A stretch of 64,000 nt of DNA, taken from the NCBI GenBank assembly GCA_016124795.1, contig WGNB01000003.1, positions 62,001 to 126,000 on the forward strand, read 5' to 3'. This document shows positions 31,572 through 37,644 of this stretch, piece by piece. The DNA is from Rhodopseudomonas sp. (lineage in GTDB: Bacteria > Pseudomonadota > Alphaproteobacteria > Rhizobiales > Xanthobacteraceae). Under the pieces are notes generated by a model, which was not told the origin of the DNA, made no database searches, and saw only the letters and a program-made list of their open reading frames with translations. Both the position numbers and the translations under genes were made by a program. Numbering within the stretch: position 1 is the first letter of the stretch; each line of letters starts with the position of its first letter.

Positions 31572-32843
31572 CTACTTGATGAGATGGATAAGCACGCTCG
31601 ATAACGGCGGGTAATAGGAAATGATCATCAGATCGATTATCATCACGCCGATATAGGGCGCGATGGCCACGACGATCCGCTCGAGCGGGACCTTGGTGAT
31701 AGCTGACGCAATGAACAGATCTACGCCGAGCGGCGGCGTCACCGTCCCGATCGACAGGTTTACCGCCATGATAACGCCAAGCAGCACAGGATCCACGCCG
31801 AACGAGACAGCCGCGGGATAGAGAATCGACGTCAGAATGACGATTGCCGCCGCTGCATTCATGATGCAACCGGCCAGCAACAGCAGGATATTAACAAACA
31901 GAATATAGACGACCTGATTACCCGCAGTTACCGCGAGATAATGCGATATGTTCTGTGGGATTTGCTCGATCGTCAGCAGCCAGGCGAAAACCCCGGCATT
32001 GTTCATAATAAACATCACGATTGCCGACGACAGAACCGCCTTGAGGAAAGCCTTGTACAAGGCCTTCAAGGTCAGTTCGCGATAGAAAATCCCGACGATC
32101 AGGCCGTACAGGACGGCGACCACCGCAGCTTCCGTGGGCGTAAAGATGCCGCCGTAGATGCCGGACAATATGATCACTGGCATCATCAGCGGCCAGAAGG
32201 CGCGCTTGAAGCTGACGTAGATGTGACGCAAGCCGGCGAAGTCGGATGCTTCAACGTTCTCGTAACGGCTCAGATACCAGTTGGTGGCAAGAATGCTGAG
32301 ACAGATCAGGATGCCGGGCAAAAAGCCCGCAATAAAAAGATCGCCGATCGAAACGCCGGTCACCACGCCATAGAGAATCATCAAGATGCTGGGTGGGATG
32401 ATCATGCCCGGCACGCCGGCAGCGGCGATGGTCGCGGCGGTATAGGACGGGCGATAACCACGTTCCTCCATCGGCCCATTCATTACACCGCCGATGGCTG
32501 CGACCGTGGCGGCGTTCGAGCCCGATAGAGCCGCGAAGAATCCGGAACTGACGACCGCCACCGCACCCAGACCGCCGCGCATATGGCCGACCAAGGCGCC
32601 GGCAAAGCCGACCAGCCGACGCGACATGCCGCCAATTGACATGATTTCGCCAGCCAGAATGAAAAACGGGATCGCCAGCAATGGAAACGAATCGTTGGTC
32701 GTCACCATCTGCTGCACGATGATTTCGAAACTGATGCCGCCAGCGGCCATGCCAATGACACAGGCAAGCCCGAGACTTACTGCGATCGGCACGCGGATCA
32801 ACAGAAGAACCAGTAACGAGACGAAGATGACGGTGGCGCTCAT
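31572..32843 (-). CDS. dctM: TRAP transporter large permease (DctM family)
   Basis: 423 residues with about twelve hydrophobic segments, normal for DctM. Typical pieces are FPLLAIPFFILAGEIM near residue 55, SGSNAATVAAIGG near 107 and VPGMIIPPSILMILYG near 150. It moves the ligand brought by DctP, driven by the sodium or proton gradient. It lies 36 bases after dctQ. Confidence 0.93.
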   Translation of the reverse strand: MSATVIFVSLLVLLLIRVPIAVSLGLACVIGMAAGGISFEIIVQQMVTTNDSFPLLAIPFFILAGEIMSIGGMSRRLVGFAGALVGHMRGGLGAVAVVSSGFFAALSGSNAATVAAIGGVMNGPMEERGYRPSYTAATIAAAGVPGMIIPPSILMILYGVVTGVSIGDLFIAGFLPGILICLSILATNWYLSRYENVEASDFAGLRHIYVSFKRAFWPLMMPVIILSGIYGGIFTPTEAAVVAVLYGLIVGIFYRELTLKALYKAFLKAVLSSAIVMFIMNNAGVFAWLLTIEQIPQNISHYLAVTAGNQVVYILFVNILLLLAGCIMNAAAAIVILTSILYPAAVSFGVDPVLLGVIMAVNLSIGTVTPPLGVDLFIASAITKVPLERIVVAIAPYIGVMIIDLMIISYYPPLSSVLIHLIK

Positions 32844-32879
32844 GACAAGGGTGCTCCACGGCGTTCCATGGGATACATC

Positions 32880-33398
32880 TCAGCCATCCGCCTGGCTGGG
32901 CTCGATCGTGCCCGACGCCGCGGTCAGCCGAGCCTCGGCATCCGGCAACAGCGCTTCGAGTGAATAAATCAACATGAAAAACGCCCCGACCGGGACCGCC
33001 GCATAGACGTAGCTCATGGAAATCTCGAGGGCGGGCGACTGCTGGGGGTAGACCAGCGTCACGATGCGAACGCCGTAGACAATTAGAATGGCGAAAAACA
33101 CGATGCATAGCCCATTAGCCAGCGCCAGCACCGGCCGCTTTAGCCTCAGTGGCAGCCAATCGACGAACATCTCGACCGCGGCATGCATATTGTGGCGCAA
33201 CGCCACCGCCGCCCCGAGGAATACCGACCAAACGAACAGATAGCGCACGACTTCCTCGGGAAACGCCAGCGAACTGTTGACGACGAAACGGAAGAACACC
33301 GCCATCGCCGCAAGCACCACCATGACGGCGAACGCCGCCACAGAGAGCGCGCCTAGGATATGTTCCGATAGGTTCAAAGACTTCCGGATCAGGTTCAT
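32880..33398 (-). CDS. dctQ: TRAP transporter small permease (DctQ family)
   Basis: 172 residues with four hydrophobic segments, the usual DctQ topology, and the family stretch SLAFPEEVVRYLFVWSVFLGAA near residues 42-63. It is encoded between dctP and dctM. The 86-base gap from dctP contains a strong hairpin. Confidence 0.9.
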   Translation of the reverse strand: MNLIRKSLNLSEHILGALSVAAFAVMVVLAAMAVFFRFVVNSSLAFPEEVVRYLFVWSVFLGAAVALRHNMHAAVEMFVDWLPLRLKRPVLALANGLCIVFFAILIVYGVRIVTLVYPQQSPALEISMSYVYAAVPVGAFFMLIYSLEALLPDAEARLTAASGTIEPSQADG

Positions 33399-33435
33399 GA
33401 CTGCGTTTCCGCATCCGAGGACAATTCACGGGCAA

Positions 33436-33472
33436 TCGGCGCGGGACATCGGGATACGACATCCCGCGCCGA
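33436..33472 (-). other. Intercistronic stem-loop after dctP
   Basis: TCGGCGCGGGA at 33436-33446 pairs perfectly with TCCCGCGCCGA at 33462-33472, an 11-bp GC-rich stem with a 15-base loop that can itself form a 3-bp inner stem. It starts 12 bases after the dctP stop (33485) and ends 38 bases before the dctQ start. No U run follows. It is likely to raise the level of DctP relative to the membrane subunits. Confidence 0.7.
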
Positions 33473-33484
33473 AGGCGTGGCCGC

Positions 33485-34555
33485 CTATTTGGTAGCAACA
33501 GCGTCTTTAATCAGCTTTTCGCCGATCTTGCTGCGGTACTGATCCCAGACGCCCTGCATCTTCTCCTGGAAAGCCTGCTTTTGCGCGTCGGTAAGATCGA
33601 TCACCGTCATGCCATGGGCCTTCATTTGTTTCAGATAGTCCTCGTCGCTTTTGTTTAGCTCCTTGCGTTCCCAAGCCTGGGTTTCGAGCGCGGCATCCTT
33701 GAACATCGTCTGGACAGCCGGCGGCAACTTGGCCCAGGTCTTCTCGCTGATCAGCACCATAATGCCGGCCCACTGATGATGGGACAGGGTAATGTAGCTC
33801 TGGACCTTGTCGAAACCGAAGGCGACGACATTACCGACCGGGTTGTCCTGGCCGTCGACCGTGCCCTGCTGAAGGCCGGTGAACACCTCACTGAGCGGCA
33901 TCGGCGTCGGGTTTGCGCCGAGCGCCTTGAAGGTCGCGACGTTAAGCGGATTGTTCACCACGCGGAACTTAACGCCCTTCATGTCGTCGGGCATGTGCAC
34001 GGGAGTCTTGCGAGTCGTAATGGTCCGAAAGCCGCTCTCGTACATGGCGAGGGTGCGGATCCCGACCTTCTTAAGCAAGCCGGCGTAAAGCTCCTGCCCA
34101 ACTGGACCGTCGGCGACATGATAGGCGTGCTCGGCATCGCGAAATAGAAACGGCAGATAGAACAGATCAAGTGGGTGATAAAACGACGCGGCATTGGTTG
34201 TCGGCGCAAGCGCCATGTCGACGGCGCCGATTTGCATGCTCTCGATCAATGCCCGTGCATCGCCGATCGTGCTGTTCGGATAGACCGAAATCTTGATTTT
34301 TCCGGCAGTCTTATCGCCGATGATTTTGGCGAACATCGCGGCGGCTTGGGCCAAAGGATGCTTTTCGTTGTAGGGATGGCCGAATTTCATCGTCAGGCTT
34401 GGAATATCGGCTGTCTGCGCGACTGACGGCACGCTGCCAAAGGACAAAAGTGCGGGAAAAACGAATGCCAGCGCCACGCTGGTGCGTGCGAGAAAGCCAC
34501 GCCGGGACGGTTGGCCCTGGCCAACCGCGCTTCGCCTGGATACTGAATACGCCAT
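33485..34555 (-). CDS. dctP: TRAP transporter periplasmic binding protein (DctP family), Tat-exported
   Basis: 356 residues from the ATG at 34555, which follows a GGAGG site; the upstream open frame overlaps the GntR gene and is not used. The N-terminus has a good twin-arginine signal SRRGFLARTSVALAF near residues 17-31 and cleavage near VAQTADIP. Mature motifs are FGHPYNEKHPLAQAA and KFRVVNNPLNVATFKALGANP with the ligand-binding Arg region. The ligand is probably an organic acid but is not identifiable. Confidence 0.92.
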   Translation of the reverse strand: MAYSVSRRSAVGQGQPSRRGFLARTSVALAFVFPALLSFGSVPSVAQTADIPSLTMKFGHPYNEKHPLAQAAAMFAKIIGDKTAGKIKISVYPNSTIGDARALIESMQIGAVDMALAPTTNAASFYHPLDLFYLPFLFRDAEHAYHVADGPVGQELYAGLLKKVGIRTLAMYESGFRTITTRKTPVHMPDDMKGVKFRVVNNPLNVATFKALGANPTPMPLSEVFTGLQQGTVDGQDNPVGNVVAFGFDKVQSYITLSHHQWAGIMVLISEKTWAKLPPAVQTMFKDAALETQAWERKELNKSDEDYLKQMKAHGMTVIDLTDAQKQAFQEKMQGVWDQYRSKIGEKLIKDAVATK

Positions 34556-34680
34556 AAAAGCCTCCACTGAATTGGGATGGTTCTCGTCCGGCACGATCAC
34601 ACCCGGTTGAAAGTCGGTCGTCTGGTCTCTTCTCGCTCCTCGGCCGGCGTACCGCGACGGCACACAGGCCTCGAATTTTT

Positions 34681-35511
34681 CTATGCCGCTAACGAACGGG
34701 TATTCTCCAGCGGCGCGTCCACCAGCTCCAGTTCGCAATCGACCGGCGGCACATAGATCCTTTGAAACGTAATCGGCTCGCGCCGGCGACTGGTAGCGAG
34801 AATTTGCAGGCGCATGCAGGTCACACGCGCCGCCACTCCGATCGCCTTGGCGACATCCACCGGCGGCTTCATCACCTTCGCCGTCTGATCGACTGCGAGC
34901 GTCGGCGCGTCGAACTCGTCGCTGAGCACTTGCTTGAGGTTGACGCTTTCCACCGTCGACTTCGGCAGTCTGAGCAACCGCTTGAACCGCGCCATACCGA
35001 AATACATCTCGCTCCAGCATGAAAAACGGTCGTCGATATTAACGAGGCGCCGGATCTGCACGAAGCCGCCGCCATCCGTGCCCAAAGCTCTGATGATATC
35101 CGCATCGCCGTCGACCTGCTCACGACCGACCAATTTGGCGTAGACCGGCAAAAGCGCACCGCTCCGCGGATCGCGGAAACGATAATGCCAGAGTTGGCTA
35201 AGTGCTCGCCGTGTTCCTCGGGCAAAAGTCCCTTTACCGTGCTGACGCTCAACCTCGCCGTCGCGCATCAGCAGGTTCAGCGACTTCTGCGCCGTGCCCA
35301 GACTGATACCCAAAGCCGCGCACAGGTCACGCTCGCCAGGCAGCTTCTCCCCGTCCCGGATCCGTCCAGCGGCGATCATCCTGGCGATAGCGTTGTAAAG
35401 CTGCGCGGTCTTCGACAGACCCGGTTGCTGCGCGTCGCCGAACGCATCGACGATGGTCTGGAGCGCGACGGAACGACCGACGTCTGTCACGGCGATGGCA
35501 CTCCCCTGCAT
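34681..35511 (-). CDS. GntR-family (HutC/UTRA type) transcriptional regulator
   Basis: 276 residues from the ATG at 35511 (the longer frame runs into a non-coding region). The winged helix-turn-helix is at residues 30-95: TAQLYNAIARMIAAGRIRDG, then LPGERDLCAALGISLGTAQKSL and QHGKGTFA. The UTRA effector domain follows. It stands directly upstream of dctPQM on the same strand, 125 bases apart, and probably senses the TRAP substrate. Confidence 0.85.
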   Translation of the reverse strand: MQGSAIAVTDVGRSVALQTIVDAFGDAQQPGLSKTAQLYNAIARMIAAGRIRDGEKLPGERDLCAALGISLGTAQKSLNLLMRDGEVERQHGKGTFARGTRRALSQLWHYRFRDPRSGALLPVYAKLVGREQVDGDADIIRALGTDGGGFVQIRRLVNIDDRFSCWSEMYFGMARFKRLLRLPKSTVESVNLKQVLSDEFDAPTLAVDQTAKVMKPPVDVAKAIGVAARVTCMRLQILATSRRREPITFQRIYVPPVDCELELVDAPLENTRSLAA

Positions 35512-35585
35512 GGTCAATCGGCCCTGTCCTGCGCGAACCTGAAGTCGACGACGCCAGACTGCACCCGCACGACTACAGAGCACAA

Positions 35586-35599
35586 GAGCTATATAGCTC
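35586..35599. promoter_or_regulatory. Perfect 14-base palindrome upstream of the GntR gene
   Basis: GAGCTATATAGCTC is fully symmetric and lies 75 bases upstream of the GntR start. It is A+T-rich at its centre and could be an operator for GntR or part of its promoter. Just beyond it, GCAAAAT is repeated at 35609-35615 and 35620-35626 (11 bases apart, one helical turn). The region 35627-35820 holds nothing else I can name. Confidence 0.45.
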
Positions 35600-35820
35600 A
35601 TTGTTTGGGCAAAATGGGTGCAAAATTTCGCCGGATGGCTGCTTTGCTGAGCGGTCGGCCGGGCCGCCGCGCCGCCCGAACCGCTCAAACGCCTTTGATG
35701 AAGCACGCTATCGCCATCATGAGCGGCTGACTAAAAACATCGACAAGAGCTCCGCCTGCGCAAAGTTTGACCTTGCGACTCCGAGCACGTGGGCCAATGA
35801 TGCCAATGTCCACAAGGTCG

Positions 35821-36016
35821 TGCGGGAGAGATCAACGCACGTGCGTTGGCGCCGAAGGAGCACCCCCCCAGGAAACTCTCAGGCACAAAGACCGCACGGC
35901 TGGACAATCTGGAGAGCGGCACGACGCCTGACCGGCGTCATGCCCACCGAAGGGGAAAGCGTGGCTCGTTCGTGACAAGCCATGCGCAAACTCTCAGGTA
36001 CCGCGGACAGATGGGG
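35821..36016 (+). ncRNA. Tandem glycine riboswitch
   Basis: Two glycine aptamers in a row. Aptamer 1 (about 35822-35913) has GGGAGAG, GCCGAAGGAGCA at 35851, GGAAACTCTCAGGCA at 35871 and TGGACA at 35901. Aptamer 2 (about 35908-36015) has TGGAGAG, CACCGAAGGGGAAAGC at 35945, CAAACTCTCAGGTACC at 35986 and GGACAGA at 36005. These are the conserved core elements of the gcvT-type RNA in the known order. It precedes a flavin-dependent amino acid oxidase gene on the same strand, so glycine probably raises its expression. Confidence 0.92.
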
Positions 36017-36022
36017 ATCGAC

Positions 36023-36041
36023 GTTCCGTCATCGACGGAAC
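36023..36041 (+). promoter_or_regulatory. Hairpin between the riboswitch and the start codon
   Basis: GTTCCGTC at 36023-36030 pairs with GACGGAAC at 36034-36041 around a 3-base loop. It is 7 bases after the second aptamer and ends 17 bases before the GGAG ribosome site at 36059. With no T run it is not a standard terminator. It may be part of the expression platform, or a stem that competes with pairing to the ribosome site. Confidence 0.5.
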
Positions 36042-36069
36042 AAATGTGACCCTATCGCGGAGCAGTATC

Positions 36070-37308
36070 GTGCCTCACCATATCGCCGTAATCGGCGCCG
36101 GCATTACCGGCGTCACTACAGCCTATTTGCTATCGCAGGAAGGCTATCAGGTCAGCCTCATCGAGCAGCAGCGCTATCCCGCCATGGAGACGTCGTTCGC
36201 CAATGGCGGGCAACTTTCCGCCAGCAATGCCGAAGTGTGGAATCGCTGGCCGACCGTGCTCAAGGGCCTTTCCTGGATGCTGCGCAACGACGCGCCGCTC
36301 CTCGTCAATCCCAAGCCCAATTGGCACAAGCTGTCATGGATGGCCGAATTTTTCTGGAACATCCGCCACTACAAAGCCAACACAATCGCGACTGCCCGGC
36401 TTGCGATCGCGGCCCGCGAAGAATTGTTCGCGATGGCGGAGCGCGAAAATATAGACTTCGACCACGAGAAACGCGGCATTCTGCATGTCTACCGCAACAA
36501 GGACGACTACGATCACGCCTGTGTCGTCAACAACCTCTTGAGCCAGGGCGGACTGGATCGGCGCGCCGTATCGGATACGGAAATCCGGAGCATCGAGCCC
36601 GCGTTGCAAGAGCGCTTCCACGGCGGCTTCTTTACAGAATCGGACTCAACCGGCGACATTCACAAATTTACTCGCGGCCTTGCCCGCGCCTGCGAGCGGC
36701 ACGGAGTCCGGCTCTTATCCGACCGCACCGTGCTGACGATCGATGGCGACCAAACCGGCGTTCGGCTTGCCACGACAGCCGGGCCCTGCCCCGGTCCACG
36801 CGATATCGTCGAGGCCGATGGCGTTGTGATATGCGCGGGTGTCGCCAGCCGCAAACTCGCGCGCGACCTCGGCGACCGGCTCAACATCTACCCGGTCAAA
36901 GGCTACTCGATCACGGTTAATCTGGCGGACGCCGTGTCCCGCACCGCCGCGCCCTGGGTCAGCATCCTCGACGACGATGCCAAGATCGTCACCAGCCGCC
37001 TTGGACCGGACCGGTTCCGTGTCGCCGGCACCGCCGAATTCAACGATTTCAATCGAGATATTCGCGACGATCGGGTCCGCCCTCTGATCGCCTGGACGCG
37101 CCGGCTTTTCCCGGATGTCGATACCGACAGCGTGATTCCATGGAGCGGCTTACGCCCAATGATGCCGACCATGATGCCGACGGTCCGCACCAGCCGGCGA
37201 CAGCGGGTGTTCTATAACACCGGGCACGGCCATCTCGGCTGGACGCTCGCCGGCATCACTGCACGGATGACCGTCGATCTCATCCAACAGACGATCCGAC
37301 CTACCTGA
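36070..37308 (+). CDS. FAD-dependent amino acid oxidase/dehydrogenase (DadA / glycine oxidase-like)
   Basis: 412 residues from the GTG at 36070, chosen because GGAG is 8 bases upstream and the protein then begins VPHHIAVIGAGITG; a GTG at 36046 is possible. The Rossmann motif GAGITGVTTAYLL with an acidic end (LIEQQ) binds FAD. GIL and STGDIHKF near residue 200 and the C-terminal GHGHLGWTLA segment are typical of D-amino acid dehydrogenase small subunits. It is under a glycine riboswitch, so glycine or a D-amino acid is the likely substrate, giving an imino acid. Confidence 0.88.
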   Translation: MPHHIAVIGAGITGVTTAYLLSQEGYQVSLIEQQRYPAMETSFANGGQLSASNAEVWNRWPTVLKGLSWMLRNDAPLLVNPKPNWHKLSWMAEFFWNIRHYKANTIATARLAIAAREELFAMAERENIDFDHEKRGILHVYRNKDDYDHACVVNNLLSQGGLDRRAVSDTEIRSIEPALQERFHGGFFTESDSTGDIHKFTRGLARACERHGVRLLSDRTVLTIDGDQTGVRLATTAGPCPGPRDIVEADGVVICAGVASRKLARDLGDRLNIYPVKGYSITVNLADAVSRTAAPWVSILDDDAKIVTSRLGPDRFRVAGTAEFNDFNRDIRDDRVRPLIAWTRRLFPDVDTDSVIPWSGLRPMMPTMMPTVRTSRRQRVFYNTGHGHLGWTLAGITARMTVDLIQQTIRPT

Positions 37309-37440
37309 GGCCCGCCGCCGACCGCTTGCAATGACTGCTTGCGAGTGCCGGCCGGCCTAGCGACCTTTCGCCAAGGCCAGGCCAGCACCCGTTTCATCAT
37401 GCTTTTCTTGCTCTCACATTTGGAATGAGTTCAGCCGTTC

Positions 37441-37644
37441 ATGACCGCAACGTCCGCCCCTCAACGTTCTCGCAATGCTTGTCGTTACTGCCAAGGAAAA
37501 TTCGGCCTGATCCGGTACCGCAGAGCCGGACGACAATATTGTTCTCGCCTCTGTCATCAGTCAGATGGCGTCAATGCCGTAACGCCCAGCAAGGCATGGG
37601 CTTTCCTGACCGCCTGGATGCACGGACTGGCCGGGAGCCGTTAG
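37441..37644 (+). CDS. Small zinc-ribbon-like protein
   Basis: 67 residues. The segment CRYCQGKFGLIRYR-16 residues-later-CSRLC contains a C-x2-C and a C-x3-C pair, the pattern of short zinc-binding proteins frequent in Bradyrhizobium and relatives (a recollection, not a search). The frame is short and lacks a clear ribosome site, but the spaced Cys pairs make chance coding unlikely. The function is unknown; it may bind nucleic acid. It is followed by the convergent RidA gene. Confidence 0.55.
   Translation: MTATSAPQRSRNACRYCQGKFGLIRYRRAGRQYCSRLCHQSDGVNAVTPSKAWAFLTAWMHGLAGSR

Follow-up and report, generated by a model that had tools for sequence, protein, structure and literature searches.

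A tandem glycine riboswitch in front of a flavin amino acid oxidase gene in Rhodopseudomonas and its relatives suggests a route of glycine disposal

Our data indicate that a tandem glycine riboswitch lies directly in front of a gene for a flavin adenine dinucleotide (FAD)-dependent amino acid oxidase in Rhodopseudomonas sp., within a 64,000-nucleotide stretch of contig WGNB01000003.1 that we call the window. We put the probability at roughly 60% that this riboswitch is a translational ON switch for an FAD enzyme that oxidatively deaminates glycine, so that excess glycine would induce its own removal. The enzyme probably burns excess glycine, because it is placed under a glycine switch, because the genome has no convincing glycine cleavage system and because the pairing of switch and oxidase recurs in many relatives.

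The tandem glycine riboswitch of the original prediction is confirmed by a covariance search with the glycine family RF00504, and its range of 35821-36069 proved correct to within a few bases. Aptamer 1 occupies 35813..35904 on the plus strand and scores 64.3 bits over model positions 1-94 of 94 (E 4.9e-11 in the window). Aptamer 2 occupies 35899..36020 on the same strand and scores 49.1 bits (E 9.5e-9 in the genome, at G000:C34:97899-98020, window positions being contig positions minus 62000). Each score is above the gathering score of 32, and the two aptamers are the sole RF00504 matches in the genome (5.14 Mb, 95% complete). The window-only scan returned aptamer 1 alone and aptamer 2 came from the genome scan, probably because the ends of the two matches coincide over a few bases and, where matches overlap, the scan keeps the top-scoring one. 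The aptamers are adjacent and share a single leader with one expression platform before the start codon. By eye, the paired region P1 of aptamer 2 joins 35907-35911 to 36008-36012 (plus strand). The core of aptamer 1 is conserved in an alignment of relatives, and GCCGAAGGAG and AAACTCTCAGG are visible there by eye; aptamer 1 differs from the majority of rows at two places, the P3 loop and the bases that follow CAGGCA. Variants of the glycine riboswitch for other ligands are mentioned in the main text of PMC9481103. Judged from its sequence, the riboswitch in the window appears to be an ordinary member of its class.

The gene directly downstream was predicted to encode a flavin amino acid oxidase, and the domain models agree. 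It covers 36070..37308 on the plus strand, with GTG at 36070 as its best start, and its N-terminus MPHHIAVIGAGITG aligns with those of relatives. The protein matches the DAO domain PF01266 with 235.9 bits and passes the equivalog cut-off of NF009074 (PRK12409), named 'D-amino acid dehydrogenase' (685.4 bits, cut-off 494). Its nearest solved structures, by sequence and by fold, are glycine oxidases, and it shares the GLRP motif with ThiO, the Bacillus-type glycine oxidase. We propose a glycine oxidase or dehydrogenase, i.e. an enzyme with glycine as its probable substrate rather than a D-amino acid.

The glycine cleavage system appears to be absent from this genome, because the best match to gcvP (21.2 bits) is below the cut-off in the 95% complete assembly, from which a single operon could be missing, and because the matches to gcvT and gcvH are weak and partial. 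There is one of each, both just above the Pfam cut-off: 28 bits over positions 49-144 of 255 for gcvT, and 22.9 bits over positions 33-77 of 122 for gcvH, the latter within a frame of 679 amino acids. These matches do not look like genuine genes. Among the matches listed, gcvP (best E below 1e-50) is found in none of the six other genomes of the same genus in our family sample.

The pairing of riboswitch and oxidase is not confined to this genome. A protein-similarity search that was blind to riboswitches gave 67 named homologues, hosted by Bradyrhizobium, Paracoccaceae/Rhodobacteraceae, Rhizobiaceae, Oricola and Rhodospirillales and, beyond Alphaproteobacteria, by Polynucleobacter and one member of Burkholderiaceae. 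A covariance model that we derived from 25 aptamers placed an aptamer immediately upstream of 66 of the 67; the remaining one (L061) starts at a contig edge, which makes 66 of 66 testable homologues. In the family sample, RF00504 was found in 116 of the 149 genomes; the family counts here and below are among the matches listed for RF00504, gcvP and the oxidase, and further sites may exist. We fetched 129 riboswitch loci of the family and grouped their downstream genes by blastp, each group being named from one representative. Downstream lies gcvT in 83 loci, the oxidase in 34, gcvP in six, a binding protein of the peptide ATP-binding cassette (ABC) type in four and an L-serine ammonia-lyase in one, with one locus undetermined. 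The four binding-protein loci are L094, L154, L171 and L181 (genomes G013, G057 and G095); the best NCBIfam match of the L154 protein is GsiB, under its cut-off. One of these genomes, G095, carries nine RF00504 matches, and its riboswitches precede gcvT, the oxidase gene and genes for peptide-binding proteins (L144, L171, L181 and L192).

The pairing tends to be found where gcvP is absent. We counted gcvP as present at a best E under 1e-50, which gives 94 genomes (95 over the tool cut-off) and leaves 55 of the 149 without it. The oxidase is a riboswitch target in all 26 riboswitch-bearing genomes without gcvP, which span 10 genera, versus 8 of 90 with gcvP, and in these 26 it is the only glycine-riboswitch target seen. 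Without conditioning on the riboswitch, the pair occurs in 26/55 gcvP-less versus 8/94 gcvP-bearing genomes (p=1e-7), and in 20/34 versus 6/79 of the genomes at least 95% complete (p=2e-8), the genomes in both comparisons being related. Our gcvP survey of the named loci covered 33 of the 67. Thirteen of these 33 oxidase genomes have no gcvP, including all four Polynucleobacter tested, and in 11 of the 13 the RF00504 matches fall at one site only, and its coordinates are those of the oxidase leader. The remaining two are Polynucleobacter with a second RF00504 site. One such site, a second tandem glycine riboswitch in the gcvP-less Polynucleobacter G162 (L265, 1-670), is followed in its first 0.7 kb by no long frame but one of 63 amino acids; it may be left over from an operon that was lost, or have a small protein as its target.

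The original prediction spoke of a glycine overflow route. Disposal of glycine is the best reading, given the lack of a convincing glycine cleavage system and the pair in 66 of 66 testable homologues. The word overflow understates the role, because the oxidase is the only riboswitch target seen in the 26 family genomes and in the 11 of 13 named gcvP-less genomes. The oxidase is found both with and without gcvP, and hence it seems able to replace glycine cleavage or to operate alongside it. Where the cleavage system is missing the enzyme would substitute for it, and where the system is present the enzyme would provide a second outlet. The reaction would run from glycine to iminoacetate and on to glyoxylate and ammonium.

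The proposed switch works at translation. Without glycine, the 3' part of aptamer 2 would pair over the Shine-Dalgarno sequence and undo P1 of this aptamer; with glycine, aptamer 2 would fold and release the Shine-Dalgarno sequence. The expression platform that would exclude P1 covers 36001..36060 on the plus strand, and it was derived from predicted folding and a cognate-pairing test over relatives. Its outer helix joins CCGC at 36001-36004, which belongs to the 3' side of aptamer 2, with GCGG at 36057-36060, in which the first half of the Shine-Dalgarno sequence lies (pair probability 0.92-0.94 in the predicted free fold). A second predicted helix joins 36010-36016 with 36050-36056 (0.57-1.00) and encloses a predicted inner hairpin at 36023-36041, and the Shine-Dalgarno-like GGAG at 36059..36062 lies half within the outer helix; all are on the plus strand. 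No terminator-like site was found between the aptamers and the gene, which rejects an intrinsic-terminator mechanism, and a search of 35500-37500 returned no sigma-70 promoter-like site. The leader also holds an ATGTGA, i.e. a start codon with an immediate stop, at 36044-36049, downstream of the inner hairpin and ahead of the Shine-Dalgarno sequence.

For the pairing test we collected 64 leaders: those of the 34 family loci, the window and 29 of the 67 named loci. Sixty-one entered the test, with 14 starts set by hand; L195 and L203 have no start and were left out, as was L121, whose start had been misplaced by hand. Of the 61, 59 are distinct, and dereplication at 75% leaves 18. The cognate duplexes average -15.9 kcal/mol versus -13.5 kcal/mol for swapped partners over the 59 leaders (p=5e-5), and -15.6 versus -12.2 kcal/mol over the 18 (p=2e-5). 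In a stricter test on the 18, the contiguous stem over the Shine-Dalgarno sequence has a mean length of 4.7 in cognate pairs versus 3.3 in swapped ones (p=0.006). Leaders of gcvT gave -13.3 versus -12.9 kcal/mol (p=0.27; 11 representatives of the 62 usable leaders among 79), a weak control whose gcvT starts were guessed by script. Translational ON control is likely for the riboswitch-oxidase group, and it is plausible for the copy in the window.

In a protein tree, the riboswitch-linked oxidases form two clades, A and B, separate from the remaining DadA-like proteins in the sample. The tree took in 12 of the 67 named homologues; L098, L122 and L178 (partial genes) and L101 (no hit) were left out. 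For comparison we chose 20 oxidase genes by hand from the family oxidase matches listed as away from the listed riboswitches. In each of the genera g1, g24 and g38, clade A stands behind the glycine riboswitch in some genomes and clade B in others, as if the enzyme had been swapped under a retained switch. We entertain a wider hypothesis at about even odds: the enzyme would be a tetrahydrofolate-independent flavin glycine dehydrogenase, misnamed as a D-amino acid dehydrogenase and translated upon induction by glycine, that stands in for glycine cleavage in many proteobacterial lineages, with two separate clades placed under one type of switch and replacing each other within genera. Such a system of glycine degradation would be hitherto unrecognised.

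A number of results weigh against glycine disposal under translational ON control, and we set them out here together with the alternatives. On the side of the enzyme, the protein is below the cut-off of the ThiO equivalog TIGR02352 (135.7 bits, cut-off 250.8) and is about 20% identical to glycine oxidase, and its fold family is broad, with CmiS2, proline dehydrogenase and sarcosine oxidase lying 1.7-2.6 Z units from the best match. Two candidate sinks for the glyoxylate were rejected in this genome: no malate synthase gene was found, though 6 of 20 genomes of the genus have one, and no glyoxylate carboligase was found above the cut-off. The 18 DadA-like proteins that are unlinked to a riboswitch lack one by selection, so their separate placement in the tree alone is informative. 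Alternatively, the annotation could be right and the enzyme a genuine D-amino acid dehydrogenase, with glycine as a proxy signal, e.g. for cell-wall stress or a mixed supply of glycine and D-alanine. The name of NF009074 and a fold in common with D-arginine dehydrogenase speak for this, and so does a clade B member that passes the DadA subfamily PRK00711 of the same superfamily (453.7 bits, cut-off 383). The window protein in contrast fails that model (331.8 bits), glycine oxidases are its best relatives of solved structure, the 18 DadA-like proteins away from the listed riboswitches lie in neither clade A nor clade B, and all 26 gcvP-less riboswitch genomes place the switch on the oxidase. 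We consider a D-amino acid dehydrogenase unlikely here.

On the side of the switch, a Shine-Dalgarno stem of at least five pairs is found in 10 of the 18 dereplicated leaders versus 40% of the swaps, and in the window's own leader 66% of foreign partners out-pair the cognate one. Enforcing P1 of aptamer 2 in this leader moves the computed Shine-Dalgarno accessibility from 0.31 to 0.34. This lack of ON logic in the window would suit an enzyme that yields glycine from an N-substituted glycine such as sarcosine or iminodiacetate, with the riboswitch as an OFF switch for product feedback; sarcosine oxidases and iminodiacetate oxidase are also near by fold. However, the pairing over relatives draws the Shine-Dalgarno sequence into a helix competing with aptamer 2, which is an ON arrangement, and disposal better fits the recurrence in gcvP-less genomes. 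Glycine production under an OFF switch thus seems to us quite improbable.

On the side of distribution, the link between the pair and the loss of gcvP is weak when genomes are collapsed to genus by gcvP state (10/19 versus 8/34, p=0.04), the pair is missing from 29 of the 55 gcvP-less family genomes, and 20 of the 33 named genomes, including Bradyrhizobium, carry gcvP besides the oxidase. Glycine might then be oxidised mainly to supply glyoxylate or ammonium, the association with gcvP loss reflecting shared ancestry, as the genus-level value and the coexistence (the pair occurs with gcvP in 8 of 34 family genomes) would allow, but the 26 of 26 gcvP-less riboswitch genomes in 10 genera and the 11 of 13 gcvP-less named genomes with their sole riboswitch site at the oxidase make this explanation improbable as well.

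The original prediction also named an RidA imine deaminase and a GcvA-like regulator as part of the route. Both are genuine neighbours here: the LysR gene near the oxidase scores 315 bits with the GcvA model (cut-off 288), and the RidA-like protein meets PF01042 and is below the cut-off of TIGR00004 (91.9 bits, cut-off 106). A divergent GntR regulator and a tripartite ATP-independent periplasmic (TRAP) transporter set dctPQM lie at 31572-35511 on the minus strand. We rejected RidA, LysR, GntR and DctP as conserved partners, since homologues were found near the oxidase in none of the 57 named loci with full flanks (tblastn, E 1e-8) and in none of the 34 family loci (E 1e-4), most of which span 3 kb and cover close neighbours only. 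As they are not conserved near the oxidase, the RidA and GcvA-like genes carry no explanatory weight for glycine disposal.

The element in the window resembles the gcvT/gcvTHP tandem riboswitch in its pair of aptamers, in its core sequence and in having one expression platform downstream of them. The gcvT context is the commonest in the family (83 of the 129 loci, among the matches listed), whereas here the flavin oxidase gene takes the place of the glycine cleavage operon. A glycine riboswitch on glcB (malate synthase) is described in SAR11 and metagenomes in the main texts of PMC2211319 and PMC5069720. Both that switch and ours sit on a non-gcv gene in Alphaproteobacteria; the glcB product handles glyoxylate, while the oxidase probably makes it. 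An oxidase or dadA is not named as a glycine-riboswitch target in the main-text passages searched in PMC12452182, PMC3766115, PMC2211319, PMC6944388, PMC2258182, PMC9481103, PMC5756330, PMC1273637 and PMC5069720. Our literature search found no such target in the passages it covered, supplements being outside its scope, so an earlier listing is possible. Twelve glycine-metabolism gene groups are counted in the supplement of PMC3766115, and COG0665 (thiO) appears once in the main text of PMC12452182, under thiamine pyrophosphate riboswitches. The novelty would lie in a different enzyme as the glycine-degradation target of a glycine switch, the switch class itself being known.

If glycine disposal is the true role, the finding would give an in vivo substrate to a widespread and probably misnamed enzyme family, and it would add a new target class to one of the best-studied riboswitches. 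It would also account for the handling of glycine in bacteria that lack the glycine cleavage system.
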